Assembly: GCA_946623485.1 (NCBI GenBank)
Contig: CAMORF010000001.1
Location: forward strand, 1 to 26,286
Source: an uncultured Clostridia bacterium
GTDB taxonomy: Bacteria > Bacillota > Clostridia > Lachnospirales > Lachnospiraceae
Reading direction: 5' to 3'
Length of the DNA stretch: 26,286 nucleotides
Part shown: positions 5,525-22,085 of the stretch, piece by piece
How the letters are laid out: the number at the start of each line of letters is the position of its first letter
Numbering within the stretch: the stretch's first letter is position 1
The notes under the pieces: generated by a model
What the model was told of the DNA's origin: nothing
Seen by the model: the letters and a program-made list of their open reading frames with translations, nothing else
Databases searched by the model: none
Position numbers and translations under genes: made by a program

Positions 5525-5579
5525 CCGCGAAGCAATATAATTTCGTGCGAAGCCGGAACAATCATCTGGAAAAAAGCGA

Positions 5580-5608
5580 TTGACAATCGATTTTTTGAGC
5601 GGTATCAT
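5580..5608 (+). promoter_or_regulatory. Promoter of the amt-carAB unit
   Basis: A perfect -35 TTGACA (5580-5585), a 17-base spacer and TATCAT (5603-5608, 5/6 to consensus). The expected start of transcription is near 5615, only about ten bases before the terminator stem begins. The same boxes and almost the same spacer recur upstream of asnB. Confidence 0.75.
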
Positions 5609-5619
5609 TCAGAAACAGA

Positions 5620-5635
5620 AAGGCAAAGGCGTCTT
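5620..5635 (+). promoter_or_regulatory. Candidate antiterminator hairpin with ANTAR-type hexaloop
   Basis: AAGGC (5620-5624) can pair with GTCTT (5631-5635, one G-T wobble) around the six-base loop AAAGGC. ANTAR-family antiterminators such as NasR and EutV recognise hexaloops with A at position 1 and G at position 4, which this loop has. The 3' arm of the hairpin is part of the terminator's 5' arm, so the two folds exclude each other. The upstream hairpin of a classical two-hairpin ANTAR site is not visible, so this is a candidate only. Confidence 0.35.
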
Positions 5636-5664
5636 GAAGAGTTTCTTCGGGACGCCTTTTCTTT
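5625..5664 (+). terminator. Intrinsic terminator/attenuator of the amt leader
   Basis: AAAGGCGTC (5625-5633) pairs perfectly with GACGCCTTT (5651-5659). The helix extends through two T-G wobbles and GAAGA/TCTTC to a three-base loop, and is followed by TTTTCTTTTATTT. It lies immediately after the promoter, so it would end most transcripts at about 50 bases unless antitermination occurs. It also ends readthrough from guaA. The 130 bases that follow, up to amt, hold a small hairpin (5689-5707, loop CCGG) and no gene. Confidence 0.85.
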
Positions 5665-5798
5665 TATTTATTCAGAATAGCAGGGGAAAGAAGGAACCGG
5701 TTCTTCTGTATATTCGAACATGTAACATTCCTCAGGAACTCTTCCACAATGGCGTGGCTGGCGCGGTGGGAGAGTTTTCCTTTTGAAAGGGGGCAGGT

Positions 5799-7610
5799 AT
5801 GACAAAAGAACTGATGGATGTAATGAAAACGCTGGATGGGGAAATCTTTGCGGTATGGTTTCTGGCCGGCGCTGCGCTGGTCTTCTGGATGCAGGCAGGA
5901 TTTGCCATGTGTGAAGCCGGCTTCACCAGGGCAAAGAACGCCGGCAATATCATTATGAAAAACCTGATGGATTTTTGCATCGGGACGGTGATGTGGTTTA
6001 TCTGCGGGGCATCCCTGATGCTTGGCCCGAACATTATGAAGGGCTTTGCCGGTGGTTTCAGCTTCGATGTGTTTACTCATTATGGATCATTCAATTACTC
6101 GTCATTTGTGTTTAACCTGGTGTTCTGCGCCACAACGGCTACGATTGTATCCGGATCTATGGCGGAGCGTACAAAGTTTTCCAGCTACTGTATCTATTCC
6201 GCCGTGATTTCCGCAGTGATCTACCCGGTTGAGGCACACTGGACATGGGGAGGCGGCTTTCTGGCACAGTGGGGATTCCATGATTACGCCGGTTCAAACT
6301 GCATCCATATGGTAGGCGGAATCTGTGCGTTTATCGGGGCATGGATGCTGGGACCCAGAATCGGCAAGTATGACAGGGACAAGAGTGGAAAGATTGTGAA
6401 GGTCAATGCATTTCCGGGACATAACCTCGTGATCGCGGCGCTTGGTGTATTCATTCTCTGGCTCGGCTGGTACGGGTTCAACGGTGCTGCTGCAACGGAT
6501 GTTGAGACGCTGGGATCTGTCTTCCTGACGACTACTGTAGCGCCTTCTGTGGCAACGGTCACCTGTATGCTGTTTACCTGGTTCAAGTACGGGAAGCCTG
6601 ATGTTTCCATGTGCCTGAATGCGTCTCTGGCCGGTCTGGTGGCAATCACAGCACCCTGTGACGTGACCGACTGTTCCGGAGCAGCCATGATCGGCGTGGT
6701 AGCCGGACTGCTGGTGGTGTTTGGGGTATGGTTCAATGATAACGTAACGCATGTGGATGACCCGGTCGGTGCTGTTGCGGTGCATATGTTCAATGGAATA
6801 TGGGGAACGATCGCGACAGGTCTGTTTGCAACCAGCTCTGCGCCGGGCTTCAAGGTGGCAGGGATTAAGGAAGGCCTGTTTTACGGAGGAGGACTGGAAC
6901 AGCTTGGAAAGCAGCTCGGAGGAATGGGCGTTACCATTGTATGGACAGTCGTCACGATCCTGATTGCTTTTACTGTAATCAAAATGACAGTCGGGCTGAG
7001 GGTTTCGGAAGAGGAGGAGATTACCGGCCTGGATACAACAGAGCATGGTCTTCCATCCGCCTATGCCGGCTTTGCGATTATGGATATTTCCAATACCATG
7101 ACCATGAGTGTGAACGAGAATACAAACCTTGGAACAGACAGCTATTCGGAGGCTTCTCAGACAAAACGGGATGCTGCGGTACCGGTAGTCCGGGCCGATG
7201 CGGAAGCCTTGAAGGGGACTCTGGCGGAAGGAGAAAGGATTCCGGAGATAGAAACCGGCATTTCCAAGGTAGTGATTATTGCAAAGCTTTCCCGCTATGA
7301 CAAACTGCGCAAAGCCATGAATGATCTGGGCGTGACAGGAATGACTGTCACACAGGTTATGGGATGCGGAATTGAGAAAGGCGCAGGGGAACGGTATCGT
7401 GGTGTAGAGATCGACGCCACTCTGCTGCCCAAGGTGAAGCTGGAGGTTGTTGTCAGCGGTATTCCGGTAGATGACGTCATAACTGCAGCGAAGGAAGCTC
7501 TGTACACAGGACATATCGGAGACGGCAAGATCTTCGTTTATCCGGTCAGGCGGGTTGTCAAGATCCGGACTGGAGAAGAGGGCTTCGATGCGCTGCAGGA
7601 TGTTGAGTGA
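5799..7610 (+). CDS. amt: Ammonium transporter Amt fused to a PII (GlnK) domain
   Basis: A 603-residue membrane protein. Residues 1 to about 410 are an Amt/Mep/Rh channel with many hydrophobic helices, the ATIVSGSMAER segment, the recruitment-site DYAG, and both pore histidines (the CIHMVGG and VAVHMFNGIWG motifs). A linker of about 75 polar residues leads to a complete PII domain (about 489-598) with KGAGERYRG (T-loop), LPKVK, IGDGKIF and KIRTGEE. PII trimers normally block Amt trimers reversibly according to ATP, ADP and 2-oxoglutarate, and here the regulator is tethered. In the T-loop the usual 2-oxoglutarate/Mg ligand Gln39 is Glu526, and the uridylylated Tyr51 is Ile538. ATG 5799 has AAAGGGGG about 7 bases upstream. 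It is the first gene after leader cassette 1 and is followed by carA. Confidence 0.95.
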   Translation: MTKELMDVMKTLDGEIFAVWFLAGAALVFWMQAGFAMCEAGFTRAKNAGNIIMKNLMDFCIGTVMWFICGASLMLGPNIMKGFAGGFSFDVFTHYGSFNYSSFVFNLVFCATTATIVSGSMAERTKFSSYCIYSAVISAVIYPVEAHWTWGGGFLAQWGFHDYAGSNCIHMVGGICAFIGAWMLGPRIGKYDRDKSGKIVKVNAFPGHNLVIAALGVFILWLGWYGFNGAAATDVETLGSVFLTTTVAPSVATVTCMLFTWFKYGKPDVSMCLNASLAGLVAITAPCDVTDCSGAAMIGVVAGLLVVFGVWFNDNVTHVDDPVGAVAVHMFNGIWGTIATGLFATSSAPGFKVAGIKEGLFYGGGLEQLGKQLGGMGVTIVWTVVTILIAFTVIKMTVGLRVSEEEEITGLDTTEHGLPSAYAGFAIMDISNTMTMSVNENTNLGTDSYSEASQTKRDAAVPVVRADAEALKGTLAEGERIPEIETGISKVVIIAKLSRYDKLRKAMNDLGVTGMTVTQVMGCGIEKGAGERYRGVEIDATLLPKVKLEVVVSGIPVDDVITAAKEALYTGHIGDGKIFVYPVRRVVKIRTGEEGFDALQDVE

Positions 7611-7680: not shown

Positions 7681-8760
7681 ATGAAGCCGGACAGACAGTT
7701 GATTTTAGAAGATGGGAGTGTATACACCGGGATCGGATTTGGAAGCAGAAGGGATACCATATGCGAGGTTGTATTCAATACTTCCTGCGCTGGTTACCAG
7801 GAGATTCTTTCTGATCCGTCCTATACGGATCAGGCAGTGGTAATGGCCTACCCGCTGATCGGGAACTATGGACTTGCGGATGAGGATTATGAGAGCAGGC
7901 TCATAGCTCCCTCAGCCCTGATCGTGAGGGATCTGTGCGACGACCCGGCCAACTTCCGCTCCACATGCTCTGTGCGGGATCTGTTTGAGGAGAAGGAGAT
8001 TCCGGGACTTTGCGAAGCAGATACACGGAGGCTGGTGAGAAATATAAGGGACTACGGCGCAAGAAGAGGTATTCTGACCGATATTTCTGTCTCTGTTGAA
8101 GAAGGGGTCAGAAGGATTCTGGATGCGCCCATTCCTCATAACGCGGTTGCAAGATGCAGCTGCAGAAAAAAATGGTACAGTCGCACCTCCAATCCAAGGT
8201 TTCATGTAGTGGCGGTTGACTGCGGCATGAAGCTGAATATCGTGCGCATGCTGAACCGGAGAAAATGCAATCTCACAATCGTTCCGTACGATACAGGGAG
8301 TGAAGAAATACTGGCAATGAAACCTGACGGCGTGTTCATTTCAAATGGACCCGGAGACCCTGCGGATGTGCCGGAGATTGTTAGGATGCTGAAAGGCCTG
8401 CACGGGCAGGTTCCTCTATTCGGGATCTGCCTGGGACATCAGCTGATTGCCATGTCCTATGGCGCGAGGACATATAAGCTGAAGTTCGGACACAGGGGCG
8501 GGAATCATCCGGTGAAGGAGCTTTCAACAGGCCGGATTGGGATGACGAGCCAGAACCATAGCTATGCGGTAGAGGAAGCATCCCTGGAGGGAACCGGGCT
8601 CAAGGTCACACATATCAATCTGCTGGATGGGACGATTGAGGGCCTTGCCAGGGAAGAAGAGAAGGTATTCTCTGTCCAGTATCATCCGGAAGGTGCCCCC
8701 GGACCGCAGGATTCTATGCAGCTGCTGGACCGGTTTCTGGAGCTGATGAAGAGAGGGTAA
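7681..8760 (+). CDS. carA: Carbamoyl-phosphate synthase small (glutaminase) chain
   Basis: CarA hydrolyses glutamine and passes ammonia to CarB for carbamoyl phosphate, the precursor of pyrimidines and arginine. The 359-residue length is standard. The N-terminal domain has the GYQEILSDPSYTDQ motif. The class I amidotransferase has Cys250 in GICLGHQ and His335/Glu337 in YHPE, so the triad is complete. The start has GAGGGA six bases upstream. The gene follows amt by 70 bases with no terminator, and carB starts 6 bases after its stop. No pyrimidine biosynthesis gene other than pyrG lies nearby, so the placement looks nitrogen-based rather than pathway-based. Confidence 0.97.
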   Translation: MKPDRQLILEDGSVYTGIGFGSRRDTICEVVFNTSCAGYQEILSDPSYTDQAVVMAYPLIGNYGLADEDYESRLIAPSALIVRDLCDDPANFRSTCSVRDLFEEKEIPGLCEADTRRLVRNIRDYGARRGILTDISVSVEEGVRRILDAPIPHNAVARCSCRKKWYSRTSNPRFHVVAVDCGMKLNIVRMLNRRKCNLTIVPYDTGSEEILAMKPDGVFISNGPGDPADVPEIVRMLKGLHGQVPLFGICLGHQLIAMSYGARTYKLKFGHRGGNHPVKELSTGRIGMTSQNHSYAVEEASLEGTGLKVTHINLLDGTIEGLAREEEKVFSVQYHPEGAPGPQDSMQLLDRFLELMKRG

Positions 8761-8766
8761 GGGATT

Positions 8767-11700
8767 ATGCCGAAAAGAGCAGACATCAGGAAAGTGCTTG
8801 TCATAGGCTCCGGTCCGATTGTGATCGGGCAGGCTGCAGAGTTTGATTATGCCGGGACACAGGCCTGCCTTGCATTGAAGGAGGAAGGGTGCGAGGTGAT
8901 TCTCGCGAACTCGAATCCTGCCACCATCATGACGGATCACGCGATTGCGGACAAGGTGTATATGGAGCCGCTGACGCTGGAATATCTGGCGAGAATCTGC
9001 CGCTATGAGCGCCCGGATGCCATCGTGCCGGGGCTGGGCGGACAGACAGGCCTGAACCAGGCATTGAGACTCTATGAGAAAGGGATCCTTGCAGAATGTG
9101 AGATCGAGCTGCTGGGAACGGATGCGGACAGCATCCGGCGTGCGGAGGACCGGGAGCGGTTTAAAGAGCTTTGCGAAGAGCTTGGGGAGCCAACTGTACC
9201 ATCCGGGATCGCCCAGAGCGTGGAAGAAGGTCTGGCAGCTGCAGAGCGGATCGGGTATCCGGTGATACTCAGGCCGGCCTTTACCCTGGGAGGAACCGGA
9301 GGCGGTTTCGCAGAGGATGCAGACCAGATGTCCGAAAAAATGAAACATGCACTCGAGCTGTCTCCGGTCGGGCAGGTGCTGGTGGAAAAAAGCATCAGGG
9401 GTTTTAAGGAAATCGAATATGAAGTGATCCGCGACGCAAATGACACTGCCATCACGGTCTGTAATATGGAAAACCTGGATCCCGTCGGGATACACACAGG
9501 AGATTCGATCGTAGTTGCGCCCAGCCAGACGTTGACGAACAAGGAATATCAGATGCTTCGGAGCAGCGCCTTGCGGATCATCCGCGCGCTGAAGGTGAAG
9601 GGCGGCTGTAATGTCCAGTTCGCTCTGGATCCGGAATCCTTTGACTATTATGTTATAGAGGTGAACCCGAGGGTATCGCGCTCCTCGGCTCTGGCTTCCA
9701 AGGCGACAGGATATCCGATCGCACGTGTCTCTGCAAAAATAGCCATAGGCCTGAATCTGGAGGAAATCCGCCTGGCCAATACGCCGGCCTGCTTTGAACC
9801 TGCCCTGGACTATGTTGTAACAAAGATGCCAAGATTCCCGTTCGACAAGTTTGAGTCAGCATCCAATATGCTTTCCACCCAGATGAAAGCGACCGGTGAG
9901 ACCATGGGCATCGGACGGACTCTGGAGGAAAGCCTTCTGAAAGCCATCCGTTCCCTGGAGGATGGAAAGAATCATATTCATCTTGATCGATTTGATGTAA
10001 AGAACCTGTCGGAGCAGGGCAGCCGCAAGGAGGCGGTCTTGAAACTTCTGAAATACATTGAAGAAGGGACTGATGACAGAATCTATGCAATCTCAGAACT
10101 GTTATGGCTGGGAACAGATCCTCAGGTCATCTATACGAAGACAAAGATTGATCTGTTTTTCCTGGAGAAAATAAAAAAGATTGTCTGCTTTGAAAAGAAG
10201 CTGGAAAGCATGGAGCAGCAGAGACTCCCGTGCGTAGAGAAACCTGTCCTTGAGAAGGATCTCCTTCTTGAGGCAAAGCGCATGGGATTCTCTGATTCCT
10301 ATATCGCGGAACTGACCGGGACAAATGAGAGAGAGATCAGACTGCTCAGGAAGCGGTATGGGATTCATCCGGTTTATAAAATGATTGATACCTGTGCGAG
10401 TGAGTTTAAGAGCTACGTTCCGTATTTCTATTCTTCCTATGAGGAAGAGAATGAGTCCATCGTGTCAGACAGACCGAAGATTATGGTTCTTGGCTCAGGA
10501 CCGATCAGGATCGGACAGGGGGTCGAGTTTGACTATTCCACAGTTCATGCAGTAAAGACGATCCGTGAGATGGGATATGAAGCGATTGTAGTCAATAATA
10601 ACCCGGAGACTGTTTCCACGGACTATACGACTGCGGACAAGCTGTATTTTGAGCCTCTGACGCTGGAGGATATTCTGAATATTGTTGATCTGGAACAGCC
10701 TGTGGGTGTGATCACTTCCCTGGGTGGCCAGACGGCCGTAAATCTAACACAGCCTCTTGCGGAAAACGGAGTTTTGATCATCGGGACATCCCCGGAGGCG
10801 GTATTTGCGGCGGAGGACAGGGATGCCTTTGAAAGGACCATACAGAAACTGGGAGTTCCTCATCCGAAGGGTGTCGCTGTGACCAGTCTTGCGCAGGGCA
10901 TCCGTGCGGCACAGGAGATCGGATATCCTGTACTTGTGAGACCGTCGTTTGTCCTGGGCGGGCGTGCCATGGAGATCGTCGCGAATGAGGAAATGCTCAG
11001 GCACTATCTCCGGAATGCCGTTGAAGTAAACGAAGACAAGCCGGTCCTTGTGGATCGTTATATTGTCGGAAGAGAGGTAGAAGTAGACGCAATCTGTGAT
11101 GGAAAAAATGTATTTCTTCCCGGCATCATGGAACTTGTGGAACGTACCGGTATTCACTCAGGGGACAGTATCAGTGTGTTTCCGCCATATTCCATTTCAG
11201 AGGCGGTCAGGGAAACCATCCGGGAGGATACACGGAAGCTGGGACTGGGTCTTGGAATCATCGGATTGTATAACATTCAGTTCATTGTAGAAGAAAATGA
11301 CAAAGTCTCTGTGATAGAAGTGAACCCAAGAGCCTCCAGGAGTGTGCCGTTTCTTTCCAAATCAACAGGTCTGCCGCTTGTGGACATCGCCACAAAGGTC
11401 ATGCTGGGAATCAGTCTGGAGAAAATGGGATATGCAGATGTGATGTTCCCGGAGAAACCATTCTGGTATGTGAAGGCACCGGCCTTCTCTTTTGAGAAGC
11501 TGAACGGTATGGACGCGTACCTTTCTCCGGAGATGAAATCAACCGGAGAAGCGATCGGATATGACAGAAGCCTGAAGCAGGCACTGTATAAAGCACTGCA
11601 GGCCTCCGGTGTAAAGATGAAGGAATACGGGACAGTTGTAGTGACACTTGCGGATGAAGATAAAGAGGAAGCTCTGCCCCTGGTGAGACGGTTTTACGAT

Positions 11701-12003
11701 CTGGGGTTCAATATCGAGGCAACAGCCGGAACGGGAATGTTCCTGAAAGAACACGGGATCCGGACAAGGATACGCGGAAAAATCAGCGATGGCAGTGACG
11801 AGATTCTCACATCCATCCGGGCAGGATATGTCAGCTACATCATCAACACACGCGCAATCCTGTCAGGGATACACTATGAAGATGGGGCAGCAATCCGAAG
11901 AGAAGCCATCATGAATGGAGTCACCATGTTTACCTCACTGGACACTGTCAGAATCGTACTGGAGGTGCTGGAGGATATCACACCCCGGATCAGAGACATA
12001 TAA
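8767..12003 (+). CDS. carB: Carbamoyl-phosphate synthase large chain
   Basis: A 1078-residue enzyme of the usual length that makes carbamoyl phosphate from bicarbonate, two ATP and ammonia from CarA. It has two homologous ATP-grasp halves. The first opens with [20 protein letters not shown] and the second, near residue 570, with [19 protein letters not shown]. Each has its own GGQT and EVNPR(V/A)SRS motifs. The C-terminal methylglyoxal-synthase-like domain (from about residue 950, with [12 protein letters not shown]) normally binds UMP or ornithine as effectors. ATG 8767 follows the carA stop by 6 bases, with the site AGGG in between. Twenty-two bases after its TAA the second leader cassette promoter begins. 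Confidence 0.97.
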
Positions 12004-12025
12004 GCAGAAAAATCTGAAAAGGCTA

Positions 12026-12054
12026 TTGACAATCGTTTTTTTGAGCGGTATCAT
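12026..12054 (+). promoter_or_regulatory. Promoter of the asnB-glnN-gltBD unit
   Basis: TTGACA (12026-12031), a 17-base spacer and TATCAT (12049-12054), with the spacer differing from copy 1 at a single base. Expected transcription start is near 12061, about ten bases before the terminator stem. Confidence 0.75.
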
Positions 12055-12065
12055 TCAAAAACATA

Positions 12066-12081
12066 AAGGCAAAGGCGTCTT
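12066..12081 (+). promoter_or_regulatory. Candidate antiterminator hairpin, copy 2
   Basis: AAGGC (12066-12070), loop AAAGGC (12071-12076) and GTCTT (12077-12081) are unchanged from copy 1, including the A1/G4 hexaloop and the overlap with the terminator's 5' arm. No second hexaloop hairpin was found upstream in the transcribed part. Confidence 0.35.
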
Positions 12082-12107
12082 GGATTTATTCCGGGACGCC
12101 TTTTTTT
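12071..12107 (+). terminator. Intrinsic terminator/attenuator of the asnB leader
   Basis: AAAGGCGTC (12071-12079) pairs with GACGCCTTT (12095-12103). The helix extends by two wobbles and GGA/TCC to a TTTAT loop, and is followed by seven T residues (12101-12107). It stands directly behind the promoter as in copy 1. Confidence 0.85.
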
Positions 12108-12201: not shown

Positions 12202-13869
12202 ATGTGTGGAGTCTTAGGTTACTGCGGAAGCAAAGGAGAATATGAAGAGATTCGGGCAGCTCTGGCAGCAACCACGTCGAGGGGCCCGGACGAAACCGTT
12301 CTGATGAATACGGGCAACGGATGGCTGGGCTTCAACAGACTGTCCATTATGGGGCTTACGCCGGACGGGATGCAGCCTTTCCGGTATGGAAAGAAGCGGA
12401 CGCTGAGGCGGAATGACCAGATGCTGCCGGCTGACAAGAGCAATCCTGCGCAGCCAAGCTCCGATCCGGAGTGGGAAATCTCTCTTGTATGCAATGGTGA
12501 GATCTACGGATTCCGTCCCATCAAAGAGGCGCTGGCCGCGAAGGGATACCGCTTCATCAGCGACTCAGACTGTGAGATTCTTCCTGCTCTGTACGTGGAA
12601 TATGGGACAGACATGTTCCGGATGCTGGATGCCGAATTTGCCATGATTCTCTATGACAGGAAGGAGAATGCATATATTGCGGCAAGAGATCCCATCGGGA
12701 TCCGGCCGCTCTACTATGGGTACAGTAATCAGGGGGAGATTGTCTTTGCGTCAGAGCCCAAGAACCTGACCCGGCTGGTGAAGAAGATCATGCCGTTTCC
12801 GCCCGGACACTATTATAAGGACGGAGCGTTTGTAAAGTACCGTGATCTGTCAGAAGTGCCATTTTACCGTAAGGATGATCTGCTGCAGACATTTGAAAAC
12901 ATCCATGACCTGCTGTTTCAGGGAGTCAGGAAACGCCTGGATTCTGATACGCCGGTTGGGTTTCTGCTCTCGGGAGGCCTGGATTCCTCCCTGGTCTGCG
13001 GGATAGCAGCAACGATTCTGGACAAGCCTCTTCAGACATGGGCGATCGGGATGGATGTTGATGCGATCGATCTGAAGTATGCCAGACAGGTAGCGGATTA
13101 TATCGGATCAAACCACCATGAAATCATTATCACGAAGGAGGACGTGCTGGATGCACTCGACCCGGTCATTCAGGCGCTCGGAACCTATGACATTACCACG
13201 ATCCGGGCATCGGTCGGCATGTACCTTGTATGCAAGGCGATCCATGAACAGTCGGATATCAGGGTCATTCTGACCGGCGAGATTTCCGATGAAATCTTCG
13301 GGTATAAGTACACGGACTTTGCACCTTCCGCGGAGGAATTCCAGAAGGAGGCACAGAAGCGGATCCGCGAGATCCATATGTACGATGTGCTCCGCGCCGA
13401 CCGGTGTATCAGCGTGAACTCTCTGGAAGCGAGGGTTCCCTTCGGAGATCTGGACTTTGTGGAGTACTGCATGTCCATCGATCCTGAGAAGAAGCTGAAC
13501 CGTTACGGAAAGGGAAAGTACCTCCTGCGGAAAGCATTTGAGAAGGACGGACTCATCCCTGAGAGCATCCTGTGGAGAGAGAAGGCTGCTTTTTCCGACG
13601 CGGTCGGCCATTCCCTGACAGATGATATCGTACAGCTTGCGAAGGAGACCTACTCCGATGAGGCCTATGAGGCAGGCATCCGGAAGTATCATCATGCGCG
13701 GCCGTTTACAAAGGAATCTCTACTTTACCGGGATATTTTTGAAAAGCATTATCCGGGACAGTCTGAGATGATTGCAGACTTCTGGATGCCCAACAGAAAC
13801 TGGGAAGGCTGTAATGTAACGGATCCGTCCGCTCGTGTGCTGTCAAACTACGGGGACAGCGGGAAGTAA
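12202..13869 (+). CDS. asnB: Asparagine synthase (glutamine-hydrolysing)
   Basis: AsnB makes asparagine from aspartate, ATP and glutamine. The 555-residue protein starts MCGVLGY, giving the class II amidotransferase nucleophile Cys2 after Met removal. SRGPDE (26-31) and CNGEIYGF (97-104) follow. The synthetase domain has the P-loop SGGLDSS at 257-263 and LTGEISDEIFGY further on. Residues about 61-92 are a polar stretch (RYGKKRTLRRNDQ, then DKSNPAQPSSD) where related enzymes usually have a shorter loop before the VCNGE strand. The start has GAGAGGTGA about 7 bases upstream. It is the first gene after leader cassette 2, and glnN follows 72 bases after the stop. Confidence 0.95.
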   Translation: MCGVLGYCGSKGEYEEIRAALAATTSRGPDETVLMNTGNGWLGFNRLSIMGLTPDGMQPFRYGKKRTLRRNDQMLPADKSNPAQPSSDPEWEISLVCNGEIYGFRPIKEALAAKGYRFISDSDCEILPALYVEYGTDMFRMLDAEFAMILYDRKENAYIAARDPIGIRPLYYGYSNQGEIVFASEPKNLTRLVKKIMPFPPGHYYKDGAFVKYRDLSEVPFYRKDDLLQTFENIHDLLFQGVRKRLDSDTPVGFLLSGGLDSSLVCGIAATILDKPLQTWAIGMDVDAIDLKYARQVADYIGSNHHEIIITKEDVLDALDPVIQALGTYDITTIRASVGMYLVCKAIHEQSDIRVILTGEISDEIFGYKYTDFAPSAEEFQKEAQKRIREIHMYDVLRADRCISVNSLEARVPFGDLDFVEYCMSIDPEKKLNRYGKGKYLLRKAFEKDGLIPESILWREKAAFSDAVGHSLTDDIVQLAKETYSDEAYEAGIRKYHHARPFTKESLLYRDIFEKHYPGQSEMIADFWMPNRNWEGCNVTDPSARVLSNYGDSGK

Positions 13870-13941: not shown

Positions 13942-16041
13942 ATGGAGAAGCAAAACATACCTGAACTATTCGGCTCTATGGTATTTGACGACAGGGTGAT
14001 GAGGTCCTGCCTTCCGGCGGACATCTACCAGTCGCTGAGAAAGACGATTGATGAAAACGCCAGGCTGGAGGAGAACGTGGCGGAGGCAGTTGCGGCCCAG
14101 ATGAGAGACTGGGCAGTCTCCAAAGGTGCAACCCATTTTACACACTGGTTCCAGCCGCTGACCGGCGTGACGGCCGAGAAGCATGACGGCTTTATCGCGC
14201 CTTCACCGGACGGCGGAGTCATCATGGAGTTTTCCGGAAAAGAACTGATCAAGGGAGAACCGGACGCCTCCTCCTTCCCTTCCGGCGGACTCAGGGCAAC
14301 CTTTGAGGCAAGAGGGTATACAGCGTGGGATCCTACCTCTTACGCATTCATAAAAGATCATACGCTCTGCATTCCCACAGCATTCTGCTCGTACGCAGGA
14401 GACGCCCTTGATAAAAAGACGCCTCTGCTGAGATCCATGCAGGCATTGAACCGGCAGGCAAAGAGGATCCTGAAGCTGTTCGGCAAGGATGCGAAGTATG
14501 TAAGCACGAGCGTCGGACCGGAGCAGGAGTATTTCCTGATTGATCAGAAAATGTTTGAGAAGAGGCCGGATCTGATCTATACAGGCAGGACTTTATTCGG
14601 CGCCATGCCCCCGAAGGGGCAGGAACTGGATGATCATTACTTCGGGGCAATCAAGCCGAGGGTTGCGGAATTTATGGATGACCTCAACCGCGAGCTCTGG
14701 AAGCTGGGCATCCTTGCGAAGACAGAGCACAATGAAGTGGCACCTGCACAGCATGAACTGGCTCCGATTTTTTCCACAACCAACGTGGCGACGGACAAGA
14801 ACCAGCTGACCATGGAAATCATGCAGAAGGTGGCAAGAAGGCATGGCATGGTCTGCCTGCTGCATGAGAAGCCCTTCGCCGGCGTGAACGGGTCAGGCAA
14901 ACACAATAACTGGTCCATGGCGACAGAAGACGGGACAAACCTGCTGTCACCCGGAGAGACGCCTTACGAGAACGCGCAGTTTCTTCTGTTCCTGTGCGCT
15001 GTGATCCAGGCAGTGGATGATTATCAGGATCTGCTGAGGCTGTCGGTGGCAACGGCAGGAAATGACCACCGGCTGGGCGCAAATGAAGCACCGCCCGCAA
15101 TCATTTCCGTATTCCTGGGAGATGAACTGACCGCCATACTGGACGCCATCAAAAAGGACGAACCCTATCAGGGCCGGGAGAAGAAGGTCATCAAGCTTGG
15201 CGTGCATTCACTGCCGCGCTTTTCCAGAGACACAACGGACAGAAACCGCACCTCGCCCTTTGCGTTTACAGGCAATAAATTTGAATTCCGCTCTCTGGGA
15301 TCCTCCAACAGCATTGCCTGCTGCAACATCATGCTGAACGCTGCGGTTGCGGAAAGCCTGAAGCAGTACGCGGATATACTGGAAGGTGCCGGGAACTTCG
15401 AGGAGTCTTTGCATAAACTGATCCGGGGCGTCATTCAGAAGCATGAGAGGATTCTGTTTAACGGGAACGGATACAGTGAGGAATGGGTGCAGGAGGCGAC
15501 ACAGGTCAGAGGTCTTTCCAATCTGAGGACGACACCGGATGCGATGCCGCACCTTCTGGATCAGAAAAATGTGGATATGCTGGTTTCCCACAGGGTATTC
15601 TCCGAAACAGAGCTTCATTCCAGATGTGAGATCATGCTCGAAAACTATTGTAAGACCGTGATCATCGAAGGACATACCATGGTAGATATGGTCAGAAAGA
15701 ATTACCTTCCGGCGATCGAGGATTATCTGTACCAGCTGGCGAAGACAACATCAATGATGAGATCTGTCAGCGACAGGGTGACGTGCAATTATGAGATTTC
15801 CACGATGGAACGGCTTTCAGACCTCACGGACTATATTCTGGACAGAGTGAAGGATCTGGAGAAAGCGCTGGAAGATCTGAAGGGGAAGGATACGGTTCTG
15901 GAAACCTCACAGGCAATCCGGGATGATGTCATTCCCAAGATGGAACATCTGAGAAAGCATGTGGATGAGGCGGAGATGCTTGCAAGTGAAGCATGCTGGC
16001 CTTTCCCGAGTTATGGAAAGCTGTTGTTTTCTGTTTATTGA
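13942..16041 (+). CDS. glnN: Glutamine synthetase, type III
   Basis: The enzyme makes glutamine from glutamate, ammonia and ATP. At 699 residues it is far longer than type I enzymes (about 440-470) and fits the type III class of anaerobes and cyanobacteria. Typical type III blocks are seen: HWFQPLTG near residue 67, [20 protein letters not shown], the metal-binding [21 protein letters not shown], and [10 protein letters not shown]. The C-terminal about 130 residues form a helical extension. There is no type I adenylylation motif. AAAGGAGG lies about six bases before ATG 13942. It sits between asnB and gltB, and the gltB ribosome site overlaps its stop, so it is translationally close to glutamate synthase and the two form the GS/GOGAT cycle. 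Confidence 0.97.
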
Positions 16042-16053
16042 GGAGGAACCGGT

Positions 16054-19000
16054 TTGAAATCGTTTCGTGAAATTCAAGAGAAAGGATTGTACGACTACGG
16101 CTTTGAACATGATAACTGCGGGATCGGGGCGATCATCGATACCCGGGGCAGGCAAAGTCATCAACTGGTGGATGATGCCCTGCTGATTGTAGAGAGGCTC
16201 GAGCACAGGGCCGGGAAGGACGCAGAGGGAAAAACGGGAGACGGCGTCGGGATCCTGACACAGATTCCGCATGCATTTTTTGTGAAAAAGCTGCAGGAAA
16301 TGGGAATCCGGCTGCCCTCTGAGAGGCAGTACGGCGTTGGTATGTTTTTCTTTCCGCAGAATGATCTGGACATGCGGCAGGCAAGATCCATGTTTGAGAT
16401 CATCGCCCGGAAGGCAGGTCTGACGATTCTTGCGTGGAGGCAGGTAGATACCAGGCCTGAGGTCCTCGGTTCCAAAGCCAGAGAATGCATGCCAAATATC
16501 CATCAGGTCTTTATCAAAAGACCTGATGGAATCCGGGAGGACCTGGACTTTGACAGGATGCTTTATATCGTGCGCAGAGAGTTCGAGCAGAGCAATGTGA
16601 ATACCTATATTCCGTCTTTGTCATGCAGAACCATCGTATACAAGGGCATGTTCCTGGTGGGACAGCTGCGCACATTTTTCACTGATCTGTGCGATGGGGA
16701 CTATCAGTCCGCCATCGCGATTGTGCATTCCCGCTTTTCCACCAATACCCTGCCCAGCTGGAACCGGGCGCATCCGAACCGCCTGATCGTCCATAATGGA
16801 GAGATCAACACGATCAAGGGGAACGCCGACAAGATGCTGGCACGCGAGGAGACCATGCATACTTCAGCCTTCTCAGAGGAAGATATGACGAAGGTGCTTC
16901 CTGTGATCTCGCAGAGCGGATCGGATTCCGCGATGCTGGACAATGTTCTTGAGTTCCTGATGATGGGAGGGCTGCCGCTTCCGCTTGCGGCAACGGTCAT
17001 GATCCCGGAGCCGTGGGCCCACAATGAAACCTTATCCCGGGAGGAGCGGGATTTTTACCAGTACTACGCAACTATGATGGAGCCCTGGGACGGGCCTGCT
17101 TCCATCGTATTCTCCGATGGAGATGTGATGGGAGCCATTCTGGACCGGAACGGACTGCGGCCATCCAGATATTATGTCATGGATGACGGGAGACTGATTC
17201 TTTCCTCCGAGGTCGGTGTTCTGGATCTTGATGAGAAGCATATCCTGAAGAAGGAAAGACTTCATCCGGGCAAGCTTCTTCTGATTGACACCAGAAAGAA
17301 AAAAATCTTTCTGGATGAAGAACTCAAAGAAACCTACGCCCACGCAGTTCCCTACGGAGAATGGCTGGACAGTGAGCTGGTGGCTCTTTCCTCGCTGAAG
17401 GTGCCGAACCGGAAGGTGACGGAGTACAGCATGCAGGAGCGAGCCAGACTTCAGAAGGCATTTGGCTATACTTGGGAGAACTGCCATGACAGCATCCTTT
17501 CCATGGCTTTGAACGGGACGGAGGTGATCGGTTCCATGGGCGTGGATACCCCGATCGCAGCCCTCTCGGATCAGTACCAGCCATTGTTCTATTATTTTAA
17601 GCAGCTCTTTGCCCAGGTGACCAATCCGCCGATTGATGCCCTGAGGGAGGAGATTGTCACTTCACGTACCGTGTATGTGGGAAAGCACGGAAACCTCCTG
17701 GAAGAGAAAAAGGAAAACTGCCATGTTCTTATGATCAACAATCCGATCCTGAGCGATCTGGATCTTCTGAAAATCGAGAACATGAAGAAGGATGGCTTTC
17801 AGATTGCGAAGGTCTCCATGCTGTTTTATAAAAGCACGCCTATGAAGAGGGCCCTGAACCATCTTTTTGTGGAAGTCGACAAGGCGTACCGGGATGGCGC
17901 GAATATCCTGATCCTGTCTGACAGAGGCGTGGATGAGAATCATGTTGCAATCCCTTCCCTGCTGGCAGTCGCAGCAGTTCACAGGCATCTGGTGGATACG
18001 AAAAAATGCACGGCCATGTCGCTGATTGTGGAAACCGGGGAGCCGCGGGAGGTGCATCATTTTGCGACGCTTCTAGGGTATGGTGCTTCTGCCGTGAATC
18101 CCTATCTGGCACACGCGACCATCGCACAGTTTACCCGGGAGGGGCTGCTGGAGAAAGATTATTACGCAGCCGCGCAGGACTACGACAGCGCGGTCTTAGC
18201 CGGGATTGTAAAGATCGCGTCGAAAATGGGAATCTCAACCATACAGTCCTACCAGGGCAGCAAGATCTTTGAGGCGATCGGGATCAGCGAAGAGGTGATC
18301 AGGGAGTACTTTACCGGGACCGTCAGCCGCGTAGGCGGGATCACTCTGGAGGAGATCGGAAGAGCAGTACACGAGCAGCACAGCAGGGCCTTCGATCCGC
18401 TGGGACTTCCTGTCAACCTGGAACTCACCCCTGCCGGACGGCATAAACAGCGCAGCCAGGGAGAATCGCACAGATACAATCCCAGGACCATCCATATGCT
18501 GCAGGCTGCAACCAGGAATGGAGATTACAGCCAGTTCCGGAAATACACGGACATGGTGGACAGCGAGTCCACCGGCTATCTCAGGAGCCTGCTGGAGTTT
18601 GATTATCCGGAGAATGGAATTCCTCTGGAGGAAGTGGAAGACGAAGAGCAGATTGTAAAAAGATTTAAGACCGGCGCCATGTCCTACGGATCCATCTCAG
18701 AGGAAGCACACCAGACCCTTGCCATAGCCATGAATCATCTGCAGGGAAAAAGCAACAGCGGCGAGGGCGGGGAAAGTGAGGAGAGAATCCTGTCTGCCGG
18801 GACCGATCACGACAGAAGCTCAGCCATCAAGCAGGTGGCCAGCGGACGGTTTGGCGTGACAAGCCGTTATCTGGTCAGCGCGAAGGAAATACAGATTAAG
18901 ATGGCACAGGGAGCAAAGCCCGGGGAGGGAGGACATCTTCCCGGGGAAAAAGTGTATCCATGGATCGCGAAGACCAGACATTCCACGCCGGGCATCAGCC

Positions 19001-20601
19001 TGATTTCTCCGCCTCCGCATCATGATATCTATTCGATCGAGGATCTGGCCCAGCTGATCTATGATCTGAAGTGTGCGAACAAAGACGCGAGGATCTCAGT
19101 GAAGCTGGTGTCGGAGGCCGGTGTCGGGACGGTGGCGGCAGGCGTGGCGAAGGCAGGCGCAGCCGTAGTCCTGATCTCCGGATATGACGGAGGAACCGGG
19201 GCGGCACCACTCTCTTCCATACACAATGCAGGACTTCCGTGGGAACTGGGACTTGCAGAAACCCATCAGACACTCCTGGCCAACGGACTGAGAAACCGTG
19301 TCGTGATCGAAACAGACGGGAAGCTGATGAGCGGGCGTGATGTGGCGATCGCAGCCATGCTGGGGGCGGAGGAGTTCGGATTCGCAACGGCTCCGCTGAT
19401 TACACTGGGCTGCGTGATGATGCGGCAGTGCCAGTCAGATACCTGTCCGATGGGAGTGGCGACCCAGAATCCGGAGCTTCGCAGACGCTTTGCAGGGAAG
19501 CCGGAATATGTGGAGAACTTCATGCTTTTCATTGCCCGGCAGCTGCGGGAGATTATGGCGCGCCTGGGGATCAGGACAGTAGAGGAGCTGGTCGGCAGAA
19601 GCGATCTTCTGAAGGTAAGGGAATCGCTTACCGAAAAGGAAAGCCGGCTCGATCTGAGCAGGATTCTGCTGCATATGGACGGGGAAACGATTTCCCACGA
19701 GAGCAGATATCTGTATGATTTCCGGCTTTCCGGGACGAAGGATGAAAGCATTCTTCTGAAATCCGCAAAGGTGAGGAAATCGCTGGACGGGGGAACAAAA
19801 GCAGTCCTGTCCTGCAGTCTCAAAAGCATCGACCGGACCTTCGGGACGCTTCTGGGCGCGCAGATCACCAGAAAGCATCCGGAGGGCCTGCCGGAAGACA
19901 GTATCACTGTGAACTGCACAGGCTCCGGCGGACAGAGCTTCGGTGCATTTCTTCCGAAGGGGCTTACGCTGAAGCTTTCCGGCGACAGCAATGACTATTT
20001 CGGAAAGGGCCTGTCCGGCGGAAAACTGATCGTATCCGTTCCTCCTGAGGCAGGGTATGATCCGGATGAAAATATCATCATCGGAAATGTGGCTTTGTAC
20101 GGCGCGACCTCCGGACAGGCTTACATCGCCGGCGTGGCGGGAGAGAGGTTTGCGATCCGCAACTCAGGCGCGACCTGCGTCGTGGAAGGCGTCGGAGAGC
20201 ATGGATGCGAATATATGACAGGCGGCACAGTTGTGGTTCTGGGCAATACCGGGAAGAACTTCGGCGCAGGCATGAGCGGCGGCGTGGCTTATGTGCTGGA
20301 TGAGAACAATACGCTGTATAAGAATCTGAACAAGCAGCTTGTCCGTATGGAGCTGCTGGAACAGGAGGAAGACGCAGCGGAGCTGAAGCGGATCATCGAA
20401 GCGCATGTGGAGGCAACAGGCTCTGCGAAGGGAAAAAGAATCCTTGCTCACTTTGACGAGTATAAAGCGCATTTTAAGAAAATCATACCGGCAGGGTACA
20501 AGGAGATCCTCAGGCTGATCGCGAAAGAGATGGAGGCAGGGATCGACCCTGCGACGGCAAAGGTCGAAGCTTTCAGAAAATTTGTCGGGGGTAAGAGGTG
20601 A
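16054..20601 (+). CDS. gltB: Glutamate synthase large subunit
   Basis: GltB transfers the glutamine amide to 2-oxoglutarate, giving two glutamates, with electrons from GltD. The 1515-residue length is full. The start is TTG at 16054, with AGGAGG at 16041-16046 overlapping the glnN stop. It encodes a 21-residue propeptide before the nucleophile Cys22 in DNCGIGAI, which is cleaved in this family. The class II amidotransferase domain is followed by a central domain, the FMN-binding synthase domain (GAKPGEGGHLPGEKV, SGYDGGTGAAPL), and the 3Fe-4S cysteines 1120, 1126 and 1131 (C-x5-C-x4-C). A C-terminal GXGXG-type beta-helix comes last (GGVAYVLDE region). The stop overlaps the gltD start. Confidence 0.97.
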   Translation: MKSFREIQEKGLYDYGFEHDNCGIGAIIDTRGRQSHQLVDDALLIVERLEHRAGKDAEGKTGDGVGILTQIPHAFFVKKLQEMGIRLPSERQYGVGMFFFPQNDLDMRQARSMFEIIARKAGLTILAWRQVDTRPEVLGSKARECMPNIHQVFIKRPDGIREDLDFDRMLYIVRREFEQSNVNTYIPSLSCRTIVYKGMFLVGQLRTFFTDLCDGDYQSAIAIVHSRFSTNTLPSWNRAHPNRLIVHNGEINTIKGNADKMLAREETMHTSAFSEEDMTKVLPVISQSGSDSAMLDNVLEFLMMGGLPLPLAATVMIPEPWAHNETLSREERDFYQYYATMMEPWDGPASIVFSDGDVMGAILDRNGLRPSRYYVMDDGRLILSSEVGVLDLDEKHILKKERLHPGKLLLIDTRKKKIFLDEELKETYAHAVPYGEWLDSELVALSSLKVPNRKVTEYSMQERARLQKAFGYTWENCHDSILSMALNGTEVIGSMGVDTPIAALSDQYQPLFYYFKQLFAQVTNPPIDALREEIVTSRTVYVGKHGNLLEEKKENCHVLMINNPILSDLDLLKIENMKKDGFQIAKVSMLFYKSTPMKRALNHLFVEVDKAYRDGANILILSDRGVDENHVAIPSLLAVAAVHRHLVDTKKCTAMSLIVETGEPREVHHFATLLGYGASAVNPYLAHATIAQFTREGLLEKDYYAAAQDYDSAVLAGIVKIASKMGISTIQSYQGSKIFEAIGISEEVIREYFTGTVSRVGGITLEEIGRAVHEQHSRAFDPLGLPVNLELTPAGRHKQRSQGESHRYNPRTIHMLQAATRNGDYSQFRKYTDMVDSESTGYLRSLLEFDYPENGIPLEEVEDEEQIVKRFKTGAMSYGSISEEAHQTLAIAMNHLQGKSNSGEGGESEERILSAGTDHDRSSAIKQVASGRFGVTSRYLVSAKEIQIKMAQGAKPGEGGHLPGEKVYPWIAKTRHSTPGISLISPPPHHDIYSIEDLAQLIYDLKCANKDARISVKLVSEAGVGTVAAGVAKAGAAVVLISGYDGGTGAAPLSSIHNAGLPWELGLAETHQTLLANGLRNRVVIETDGKLMSGRDVAIAAMLGAEEFGFATAPLITLGCVMMRQCQSDTCPMGVATQNPELRRRFAGKPEYVENFMLFIARQLREIMARLGIRTVEELVGRSDLLKVRESLTEKESRLDLSRILLHMDGETISHESRYLYDFRLSGTKDESILLKSAKVRKSLDGGTKAVLSCSLKSIDRTFGTLLGAQITRKHPEGLPEDSITVNCTGSGGQSFGAFLPKGLTLKLSGDSNDYFGKGLSGGKLIVSVPPEAGYDPDENIIIGNVALYGATSGQAYIAGVAGERFAIRNSGATCVVEGVGEHGCEYMTGGTVVVLGNTGKNFGAGMSGGVAYVLDENNTLYKNLNKQLVRMELLEQEEDAAELKRIIEAHVEATGSAKGKRILAHFDEYKAHFKKIIPAGYKEILRLIAKEMEAGIDPATAKVEAFRKFVGGKR

Positions 20602-22085
20602 TGGGCAAAACAACGGGGTATCTGGAATTTGACAGAACAGAAGGACCGGTCAGAGACGAAGAAAGCCGCACACAGGATTTCCTGGAATTCCATGAACGGC
20701 TGGATCTGAAGGAGCAGAAGAGACAGGCATCCAGATGCATGGACTGCGGGATTCCATTCTGCCAGGCGGGAGTGATGATTTCAGGAATGATGTCCGGCTG
20801 TCCTCTTCAAAACCTCGTACCGGAAATCAATGATCTGGTCTATAAAGGACAAATGGAAGAGGCCTACCGCAGGCTGTCCGTCACACACAGCTTTCCGGAG
20901 TTTACCAGCAGGGTCTGTCCTGCCCTCTGCGAAGCGGCATGCACCTGCGGCGTGCATGATCAGAGCGTGACCACGAAGGAAAATGAAAAGGCTGTCATCG
21001 AGTACGCATATGAACACGACCTGGTGAAGGAAGAGATTCCGGCTGTTCGGACCGGCAAGAAGGTGGCGGTGATCGGCAGCGGTCCCTCCGGTCTGGCCGC
21101 GGCGCAGCTTTTGAACCGGCGCGGCCATGAAGTAACCGTGTACGAAAGGAATGACCGCATCGGCGGACTGCTTCGTTACGGAATTCCGAACATGAAGCTG
21201 GATAAATCTCTGATCGACAGGCGCCTCCGCATCATGGAGCAGGCAGGGATCCGGTTCGTGACGGGGACGGATGCGGGAAAAGATATCTCAGCAGAAGAAC
21301 TGATGCGGGAGTATGACAGCGTGCTGCTTGCCTGCGGTGCCTCGCATCCCAGGGACATTCAGGTCCCGGGAAGGGATGCGGGAGGGATCCGGTTTGCGGT
21401 GGATTTTCTGTCGGAGGTAACCCAAACCCTGCTGGACAGTGAATTTCAGAAGGTTCCGTATGAGCTTGTGAAGGACAAGGATGTGATCATCATAGGCGGC
21501 GGGGATACCGGAAATGACTGCGTGGCCAGCTGCATCCGTCTGGGAGCCAGGAGCGTAACCCAGCTTGAGATGATGCCGAAACCCTCCGAAACAAGGCAGC
21601 CCTCCAACCCGTGGCCGGAATGGCCCAGAGTGCTGAAGACAGACTACGGCCAGGAGGAGGCCATCTGGAAATTCGGGCAGGATCCCAGAATTTATCAGAC
21701 GACCGTGAAGGAATTCATCAAAGATCAGGAAGGAAATCTGAAGGAAGCAGTTCTGATCTCCCTTGAAGGCAGGAAGGATCCAAAGACCGGACGTTTTGCG
21801 ATGACGCCGGTGGAAGGATCAGAAACAACAGTGCCCGCGCAGCTGGTCCTGATCGCGGCCGGCTTTCTCGGAAGTGAGCAATATGTGACAGAAGCCTTCG
21901 GCGTGGAGACAGATGAAAGGACAAATGTCAGGACTGAGAAAGGCGGATATGCGACATCAAAAGCGCATATCTTCACCGCCGGGGATATGCACCTGGGGCA
22001 GTCCCTGGTCGTCAGAGCCATCGCGGAAGGAAGAAAGGCGGCAAAGGCGATAGATGAGGCGTTGATGGGATATACAAATTTGTGA
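20601..22085 (+). CDS. gltD: Glutamate synthase small subunit
   Basis: GltD oxidises NAD(P)H on FAD and passes electrons to GltB. The 494-residue protein has N-terminal cysteine clusters for two 4Fe-4S centres (CMDCGIPFC, GCPLQN, CPALCEAACTCG). An FAD-binding VAVIGSGPSGLAAA and an NAD(P)-binding VIIIGGGDTGNDC follow, with a closing FTAGDMHLGQSLVV. I chose ATG 20601, which overlaps the gltB stop as TGATG and gives the family-typical MGKTTGYLEF start. A GTG at 20598 adds one Met-like codon and is less likely. Tight coupling to gltB ensures matched subunits. Confidence 0.97.
   Translation: MGKTTGYLEFDRTEGPVRDEESRTQDFLEFHERLDLKEQKRQASRCMDCGIPFCQAGVMISGMMSGCPLQNLVPEINDLVYKGQMEEAYRRLSVTHSFPEFTSRVCPALCEAACTCGVHDQSVTTKENEKAVIEYAYEHDLVKEEIPAVRTGKKVAVIGSGPSGLAAAQLLNRRGHEVTVYERNDRIGGLLRYGIPNMKLDKSLIDRRLRIMEQAGIRFVTGTDAGKDISAEELMREYDSVLLACGASHPRDIQVPGRDAGGIRFAVDFLSEVTQTLLDSEFQKVPYELVKDKDVIIIGGGDTGNDCVASCIRLGARSVTQLEMMPKPSETRQPSNPWPEWPRVLKTDYGQEEAIWKFGQDPRIYQTTVKEFIKDQEGNLKEAVLISLEGRKDPKTGRFAMTPVEGSETTVPAQLVLIAAGFLGSEQYVTEAFGVETDERTNVRTEKGGYATSKAHIFTAGDMHLGQSLVVRAIAEGRKAAKAIDEALMGYTNL

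Follow-up and report, generated by a model that had tools for sequence, protein, structure and literature searches.

In the present study, two leader regions in a 26,286-nucleotide stretch of DNA from an uncultured Lachnospiraceae bacterium (the whole stretch is called the window here) were found to share one compact element, in which a promoter leads almost directly into a small hairpin with a six-base loop that overlaps an intrinsic terminator. We believe, with a probability of roughly 0.77, that this element is an antitermination leader of the ANTAR type with a single hexaloop, fused to its own promoter and belonging to a glutamine and nitrogen regulon. Known ANTAR switches use two hexaloop hairpins, and here one was found. 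For these leaders, ANTAR binding, the direction of control and the signal are what we infer from comparison of related sequences.

Materials and Methods

Two covariance models were used, both with the terminator pairs only. The first (R1) was searched against 150 genomes of the family. The second (R2), in which the hairpin P2 was left unpaired, had 95 sources; its 110 matches, less 10 antisense readings and one duplicate, gave the set of 99 elements. An alignment of 28 elements (A4) was made without the use of structure. Seven of the 30 loci L044-L073 were left out of A4 by eye (L057, L061, L067, L068, L070, L071 and L072) and are also absent from the 95 sources; L044 and L045 repeat L003 and L008. 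The loci L074-L076 and L104-L132, which come from ANTAR-negative genomes, were kept out of the 95 sources and used as control. The upstream hairpin P1 was sought as a hexaloop hairpin with A1 and G4, a stem of at least 4 and a linker of 2-14. Nine ANTAR-negative family genomes were derived as handles missing from the ANTAR listing, and in the ANTAR-positive genomes 28 of the listed matches were read as loci, which is less than a full count. EutV residue numbers were carried over through our own alignment.

Results

The repeat finder gave the pair 5571-5636 and 12017-12082 of the window as 66 nt with 92% identity. The initial annotation had described one block with 54 of 57 bases identical from the -35 box (5580 and 12026) into the terminator, and an exact recount agrees with it. 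The other repeat families among those listed (19 of 52 besides the leader pair) are at most 82% alike and, by their coordinates, lie in or at coding sequence; this and a further copy in the genome, described below, put the leader pair beyond chance. The promoter is TTGACA-N17-TATCAT in both copies. At the amt-carAB leader the -10 box (5603-5608) ends 16 nt 5' of the hexaloop, which is the commonest distance among related elements, and transcription is expected to start near 5614-5617. The terminators of the two copies fold with -27.5 and -22.9 kcal/mol, and none of 200 shuffles was equal. It had also been remarked that the tops of the terminator stems differ and still pair, as under selection for the hairpin, and that the terminator follows the likely start by about ten bases; the paired tops are seen in both copies, and the sequence supports the selection of the hairpin as well as the short distance. 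The positions are collected in Table 1. The Amt protein carries a C-terminal P-II fusion (Ammonium_transp 19-418, P-II 489-593). Upstream of guaA, the window encodes at 2011-3942 an AAA ATPase with a C-terminal RyR domain.

Table 1. Positions of the leader elements and of the genes that follow them in the window
Feature	Position	Strand	Basis
-35 box TTGACA, promoter of the amt-carAB leader	5580..5585	+	sequence; promoters in related elements
-10 box TATCAT, amt-carAB leader, 17-bp spacer	5603..5608	+	sequence
Antiterminator hairpin P2, AAGGC[AAAGGC]GTCTT, hexaloop 5625-5630 with A1 and G4	5620..5635	+	covariation in relatives
Intrinsic terminator stem-loop, T-rich run to about 5669; 5' arm formed by the hexaloop and the 3' arm of P2	5625..5659	+	sequence, fold, covariation
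amt, ammonium transporter, first gene after copy 1	5799..7610	+	ORF, domains
carA (7681-8760) and carB (8767-12003), carbamoyl-phosphate synthase	7681..12003	+	
-35 box TTGACA, promoter of the asnB-glnN-gltBD leader	12026..12031	+	sequence, copy identity
-10 box TATCAT, asnB-glnN-gltBD leader	12049..12054	+	sequence
Antiterminator hairpin P2, AAGGC[AAAGGC]GTCTT, hexaloop 12071-12076	12066..12081	+	sequence; covariation
Intrinsic terminator, T run 12101-12107	12071..12103	+	sequence, fold, covariation
asnB, glutamine-hydrolysing asparagine synthase, first gene after copy 2	12202..13869	+	
glnN, type III glutamine synthetase	13942..16041	+	
gltB (16054-20601) and gltD (20598-22085), glutamate synthase	16054..22085	+	

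A third, diverged copy precedes glmS elsewhere in the window's own genome, an assembly of 2.45 Mb in 390 contigs that is 73% complete. It consists of TTGACA-N17-TAGAAT, then CAGAAAGACAAAGGCGTCTTGG, then a terminator. The RNA start, hairpin and terminator of the window copies are kept in it, and the spacer differs from theirs. Furthermore, the block was found in relatives before asnB and glnN. Selection thus acts on a part that takes in the RNA start and leaves out the promoter spacer.

In its first bases the RNA is able to form AAGRC[AAAGGC]GTCTT, a 5-bp stem closed by a hexaloop with A1 and G4. Both window copies carry this hairpin, which corresponds to P2 of the ANTAR-type attenuators, and in both its 3' arm overlaps the terminator. 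Because the loop and the 3' arm of P2 double as the 5' arm of the terminator, the two structures are mutually exclusive. P2 alone has a folding energy of -3.7 kcal/mol, no better than shuffles; such marginal stability suits a hairpin that depends on a protein, yet it is equally what a weak hairpin looks like. No Rfam model matched the window at gathering score. RF00625 overlapped the first copy with 19.6 bits (E 2), its gathering score being 70, and the leaders of seven further loci, one of them from the window's own genome, gave no match at E up to 0.5. A known Rfam RNA family (riboswitch, T-box or leader) was ruled out on this lack of matches.

The hairpin was then judged by covariation. R1 matched 48 of the 150 family genomes at E up to 0.01, the E-values of R1 and R2 both being rough. 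In A4, 95.7% of the cells of P2 are paired, with 20 two-sided changes, and 97.4% of those of the terminator, with 28. For either helix none of 500 shuffles reached the observed cells paired or the covariation score; for P2, 32 of 500 had at least as many pairs changed on both sides as observed (4 of 5). Among the 99 R2 matches the P2 stem is at least 4 in 81 and at least 3 in 96, and shuffling of the arms gave a stem of at least 4 in a mean of 44 and a maximum of 59. Two of the seven loci left out by eye (L057 and L061) have P2 and five are without it; when these five are counted as failures, a stem of at least 3 is found in 96 of 104. The ten antisense readings of the terminator had a P2 stem of 0 or 1 in nine cases and of 6 in one. 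The closing pair is C-G in 99/99, the second pair is G-C in 37, A-T in 35 and G-T in 26, and the third is G-C in 47 and A-T in 43. G4 of the hexaloop is present in 99/99 and A1 in 95/99, and position 3 is A in 79/99; as the search model favours the loop sequence, this loop conservation weighs less than the covariation of the stem.

Several other forms of the element were seen. A variant hairpin, ATGAGC[AAAGGC]GTTCAT or close to it, occurs in L080 (602+), L081 (3757-), L082 (8876-), L176 (137-), L352 (1686+) and L354 (1705+), with GTGAGC in L081 and GTTCGT in L176; it mostly has a near-perfect promoter and another terminator, and in L080 glutamate-synthase-like ORFs lie downstream. At L400 (1295+) an element with the loop AATGAC and an unrelated terminator lies between glnN and amt, in a genome (G101) without an R2 match, so that the element family may be wider than the model. 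Two single-hexaloop attenuators in a row upstream of a single gene were observed in L176 (314, 389), L353 (1512, 1586), L352 (1543, 1424), L191 (2091, 1990) and L139 (1543, 1439).

A promoter with at least 10 of 12 consensus bases was found upstream of 82 of the 99 elements; of 253 control windows taken from those loci, 3 had one. The distance from the end of the -10 box to the hexaloop is 13-17 nt in 67 of the 82 strong-promoter copies. From this distance the start is expected a few bases before P2, which would leave no room for P1 in the RNA. The scan at a stem of at least 4 detected P1 in none of the 99 elements (shuffle mean 2.0); when the stem was relaxed to at least 3, there were three candidates in 99 (shuffle mean 5.8). 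As positive control, the scan detected the dual hexaloop near a EutV-like ANTAR gene (L319). Thus, the second, upstream hexaloop on a short linker that characterizes ANTAR-type attenuators was not found here. In 81 sites of named records preselected for promoter and P2, four had a P1-like hairpin with a stem of at least 4, a count that has no shuffle comparison. About 65 nt upstream of 43 elements were also read, and three of them had an A1/G4 hairpin with a stem of 4-5 at 26-40 nt, beyond the linker range. Copies inside operons, for example before glnN and gltB in G011, have no adjacent promoter, and in these two no P1 was found within the linker range.

Of the 250 genomes of the family, R2 matched 160 with E up to 0.001, and P2 is absent from some of these matches. 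A pattern scan of named genomes (a -35 box, then AARRCAAAGGCGYYTTGG) gave at least 118 stretches. Of 80 titles of such stretches, 67 name Lachnospiraceae or what we take to be its genera (Blautia, Butyrivibrio, Oribacterium, Eisenbergiella, Mediterraneibacter, Sellimonas and others), and the other 13 name Clostridia, Eubacteriales, Eubacterium, Ruminococcus, one Selenomonadaceae and one Bacteroides. The at least 118 stretches hold 120 sites, 27 without a readable ORF. The 93 readable sites precede glnN (41), asnB (23), amt (9), purF (6), dapL (6), gltB (2), pyrG (1), guaA (1), dapF (1) and three other genes, in a tally that is free of ANTAR bias but preselected for promoter and P2. In the 99-element set, 79 of 98 readable sites stand before such genes, with gdhA, carA, asnA, glmS and a circularly permuted ATP-grasp ORF added; this tally is not a random sample, because 14 of the 95 sources (from L077-L093) were picked mainly because a second element or an ANTAR gene lay close by, and targets that had been seen first were added to the reference genes (the circularly permuted ATP-grasp ORF, asnA, gdhA, purF, dapF and glnA). 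At the 19 other sites the downstream genes range from those of an ornithine cyclodeaminase-like protein, a class III aminotransferase, a PucR and an AsnC-type regulator and a PPDK_N protein to seemingly unrelated ones. With E up to 1e-5, R2 matched 29 of 245 genomes in the order search, and 13 of the 29 belong to other families. All 13 loci of other families have a P2 stem of at least 4; ten precede glnN or amt, and three are without a named downstream gene. Related copies across the family and the order indicate more than duplication within one genome.

These results bear on two expectations of the initial annotation. The link to nitrogen genes is supported by the elements before glnN, asnB, amt and gltB in relatives. 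A covariance-model search of relatives had been proposed to see whether copies cluster before amt, asnB, gln, glt and nif-type genes; when run, it gave clusters before the first four, and nif was not among the named downstream genes. The circularly permuted ATP-grasp protein was seen downstream repeatedly (L093, L164, L188, L189 and L194) and is a candidate nitrogen-related enzyme. Another conserved protein follows the elements in L054, L073, L140 and L273, with a PPDK_N domain in L073.

The ANTAR domain (PF03861) is encoded in 221 of the same 250 family genomes. Of the model-positive genomes 154 of 160 have it, and of the model-negative ones 67 of 90 (both 154, R2 only 6, ANTAR only 67, neither 23; p 5e-7), and the 67 ANTAR-positive genomes have no R2 match at E 0.001. 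The six genomes with R2 only are the incomplete genome of the window itself (G000), two without P2 (G161 and G220) and three with P2 (G230, G234 and G280). The window's own assembly (73% complete) yielded no ANTAR gene, and in the same genus the gene is present in 15 of 18 genomes. The last three of the six are near-complete, have no detectable ANTAR and carry credible elements, which precede glnN, asnA, amt and an ATP-grasp-like ORF. When matches at E up to 0.05 were considered in 28 ANTAR-negative genomes, credible elements were found in these three only, with a weaker candidate in G232; the other matches lie at other genes or at none. In the order search, ANTAR was present in all 21 model-positive genomes tested (13/13 of other families and 8/15 of the family). 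A comparison draw made regardless of the element had it in 11 of 24 other-family genomes, one genome (G037) being in both sets (Fisher, p 0.0009; 0.0007 without the shared genome).

In addition, the ANTAR gene and the element are physically linked. Places for both were listed in 61 genomes, and in 23 of these no more than 30 kb separates an ANTAR gene from an element, with about 1.9 expected by chance. Apart from EutV-like loci, the ANTAR gene stands directly behind one for glutamine synthetase in 21 of 26 cases, and in a second locus set in 19 of 20, with six genomes common to both sets. The linked glutamine synthetase is of type I by TIGR00653 (one tested). In Clostridium saccharobutylicum an ANTAR regulator is linked to glnA. 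In G481 the ANTAR gene is divergent from and adjacent to a glnN element. In the window's genus, G008 and G011 have an asnB-glnN-gltBD cluster with elements and the ANTAR gene at its end, and in G004, G006, G010 and G018 the 20-36 kb covered on the ANTAR contig are free of elements; of the six genomes of this genus inspected around ANTAR, two thus have them. When the full-length ANTAR alignment (A5) was used as query, ordinary receiver domains dominated the outcome, and among the matches listed none went past position 153 of 191.

The ANTAR proteins were compared with EutV, in which Lys149, Glu160 and Met172 hold the flipped G4 or plug the hexaloop and Tyr164 stacks on G4 (PMC8934654). The three residues Lys149, Glu160 and Met172 are invariant in 22/22 aligned proteins. 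The Tyr164 position is His in 18, Tyr in 3 and Phe in 1, and Arg168, Arg175 and Arg177 are mostly replaced in the 22. The phospho-acceptor Asp is absent from 20/20 pseudo-receivers and present in the two EutV-like proteins. Since the contact residues are mostly kept and the acceptor Asp is lost, reading of the hexaloop is probably largely retained and control by phosphorylation is unlikely.

Discussion

The initial annotation had described a promoter-plus-terminator cassette. Both parts are present, and the object under selection is rather the hexaloop antiterminator hairpin that overlaps the terminator, which also occurs inside operons without an adjacent promoter. We propose that each copy may act as a transcription-attenuation leader fused to its own promoter. 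RNA polymerase would start about 3-6 bases before P2, so that the nascent RNA begins almost at the hairpin. Without a regulator, the 3' arm of P2 would be captured by its downstream complement, the stronger terminator would form and transcription would stop after about 50 bases. The default-off leader suggested by the initial annotation is the simplest reading of the sequence on this point, and the RNA of about 50 bases that it gave as the alternative may exist as a stable species. A regulator bound to the hexaloop through A1 and G4 would hold P2, block the terminator and let the operon be read. Most likely, this regulator is the degenerate-receiver ANTAR protein of related genomes, whose gene as a rule stands immediately behind one for glutamine synthetase. 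The signal would probably be the nitrogen or glutamine status, and because this ANTAR protein lacks the phospho-acceptor Asp, the signal is perhaps passed through a protein partner, as for AmiR.

Other readings of the element were weighed against this one. P2 could be read by a factor that is not an ANTAR protein, either another RNA-binding protein or a small ligand as in a riboswitch, with the antitermination logic unchanged; we consider this unlikely. The three ANTAR-negative genomes that keep elements before glnN, asnA, amt and the ATP-grasp-like ORF speak for it, as do the missing ANTAR gene in the window's own assembly and the departure of one hexaloop from the two-hexaloop targets studied so far. 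The hexaloop itself argues for the ANTAR protein, since A1 and G4 with a freer position 3 (A in 79/99) are its known signature, and so do the 21 of 21 order-search genomes with ANTAR, the physical linkage and the absence of any Rfam family matching the leaders (at gathering score, or at E up to 0.5). Moreover, for a metabolite aptamer a stem of 5 bp closed by six bases would be very small. We regard as improbable that the leaders are classical dual-hexaloop targets with a disguised P1, be it by an unusual loop, a short stem, a long linker or a longer transcript from an upstream promoter. The same scan that detects the dual hexaloop of L319 finds none in 99 at a stem of at least 4 (shuffle mean 2.0), by which a P1 hidden upstream is largely rejected, and a -10 box 13-17 nt before the loop in 67 of 82 leaves no room for it in the RNA; such a P1 would be favoured by its essential role in eutP (PMC3369931), by the three candidates in 99 at a stem of at least 3 (shuffle mean 5.8), by the three of 43 elements with an A1/G4 hairpin 26-40 nt upstream and by the four of 81 pattern-selected sites with a P1-like hairpin of stem at least 4, which have no shuffle comparison.

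It is very improbable, in our judgement, that the element serves to make the terminated RNA of about 50 nt, which might act as an ANTAR sponge as proposed for EutX/Rli55, with the operon having its own start. A strong promoter with a strong terminator would fit such a role, and Walshe 2022 (PMC8934654) describes an extra single hexaloop in EutX; but the elements precede nitrogen genes in the reading direction and recur inside operons without an adjacent promoter, and the overlap of P2 and terminator is needed only for read-through. A neutral recent duplication or a mobile repeat within the genome is scarcely credible. It would account for the 92% identity of the window copies but not for mutually exclusive, covarying helices across many genera and other families, and on this family-wide covariation a mobile repeat or chance duplication was rejected.

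Overall, the antitermination leader with one hexaloop remains our preferred reading, and we lean towards a broader proposal, in which the glutamine and nitrogen regulon of this order, prominent in gut and rumen, would be run by single-hexaloop attenuators fused to the start, the 5' end of the RNA would be the switch, one hexaloop would suffice and the ANTAR protein with a dead receiver beside glutamine synthetase would be the master regulator. If this is true, the two-hexaloop rule is not general, and search models based on dual hairpins have missed the most compact, and perhaps the commonest, form. The leaders look like natural single-hexaloop attenuators, and with at least 118 stretches there are enough of them to test the single-hexaloop question directly. 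They also offer a concrete model for nitrogen sensing in Lachnospiraceae, a major group of gut and rumen, in which an ANTAR protein linked to glutamine synthetase would act on a defined set of leaders. In addition, an element of 50 nt is small enough to be used as a regulatory part.

In the open-access literature covered (titles and starts of abstracts), no description of the element was found, and some of the element loci may already stand in the supplementary tables of Ramesh 2012. The initial annotation knew of no named element of such form. This does not hold, because antitermination of the ANTAR type is named (PMC3369931), and the present leader differs from it by the missing P1. Ramesh 2012 defines ANTAR targets as two A1/G4 hexaloop hairpins, the second overlapping a terminator, and describes ANTAR regulons at nitrogen genes, among them those for ammonium transporters and for the synthases of glutamine and glutamate (PMC3369931). 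The dual-hairpin definition is also used in the commentary PMC3369936 and in PMC8164766. Our leaders resemble the attenuators of EutV/eut, NasR/nasF and AmiR/amiE in the A1/G4 hexaloop hairpin whose 3' arm overlaps an intrinsic terminator, and they share with the dual-hexaloop attenuators the nitrogen genes, the ANTAR gene in most genomes with the element and the presence of several copies as a regulon (PMC3369931). Unlike those attenuators, they have one hexaloop, placed at the 5' end of the transcript beside the promoter (PMC3369931), and unlike the EutV, NasR and AmiR systems the linked ANTAR protein has a degenerate receiver and is mostly encoded after glutamine synthetase.

In the EutV system, deletion of P1 abolishes induction and both hexaloops are needed (PMC3369931), so that by that model one hexaloop should not suffice. 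According to Walshe 2022 (PMC8934654), the EutV dimer is unable to bind both hexaloops at once, P1 and P2 alone are bound without significant difference, and the minimal ANTAR motif is redefined as one hexaloop, with a call to search for single sites. Our results agree with the expectation that such sites exist (PMC8934654); that paper expects them where there is no time limit from a transcribing polymerase, and here they lie inside transcription attenuators. The actinobacterial ANTAR RNAs are likewise a predicted target set in one large group, and in PMC8164766 they are modelled as dual stem-loops, few of them upstream of a terminator. The element is also like the RAT antiterminators of LicT, SacY and BglG, in which a single hairpin held by a protein excludes a terminator. 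RAT measures 29-30 nt, has asymmetric internal loops and serves sugar genes (PMC3369936 and PMC3369931), whereas P2 spans 16 nt, has no interruption in its 5-bp stem below the hexaloop and serves nitrogen genes; identity with RAT was rejected, since P2 lacks that length and the internal loops. Because the element would work like an ANTAR attenuator and lacks the upstream P1, we place it with the ANTAR attenuators as a variant and not as a standard member.
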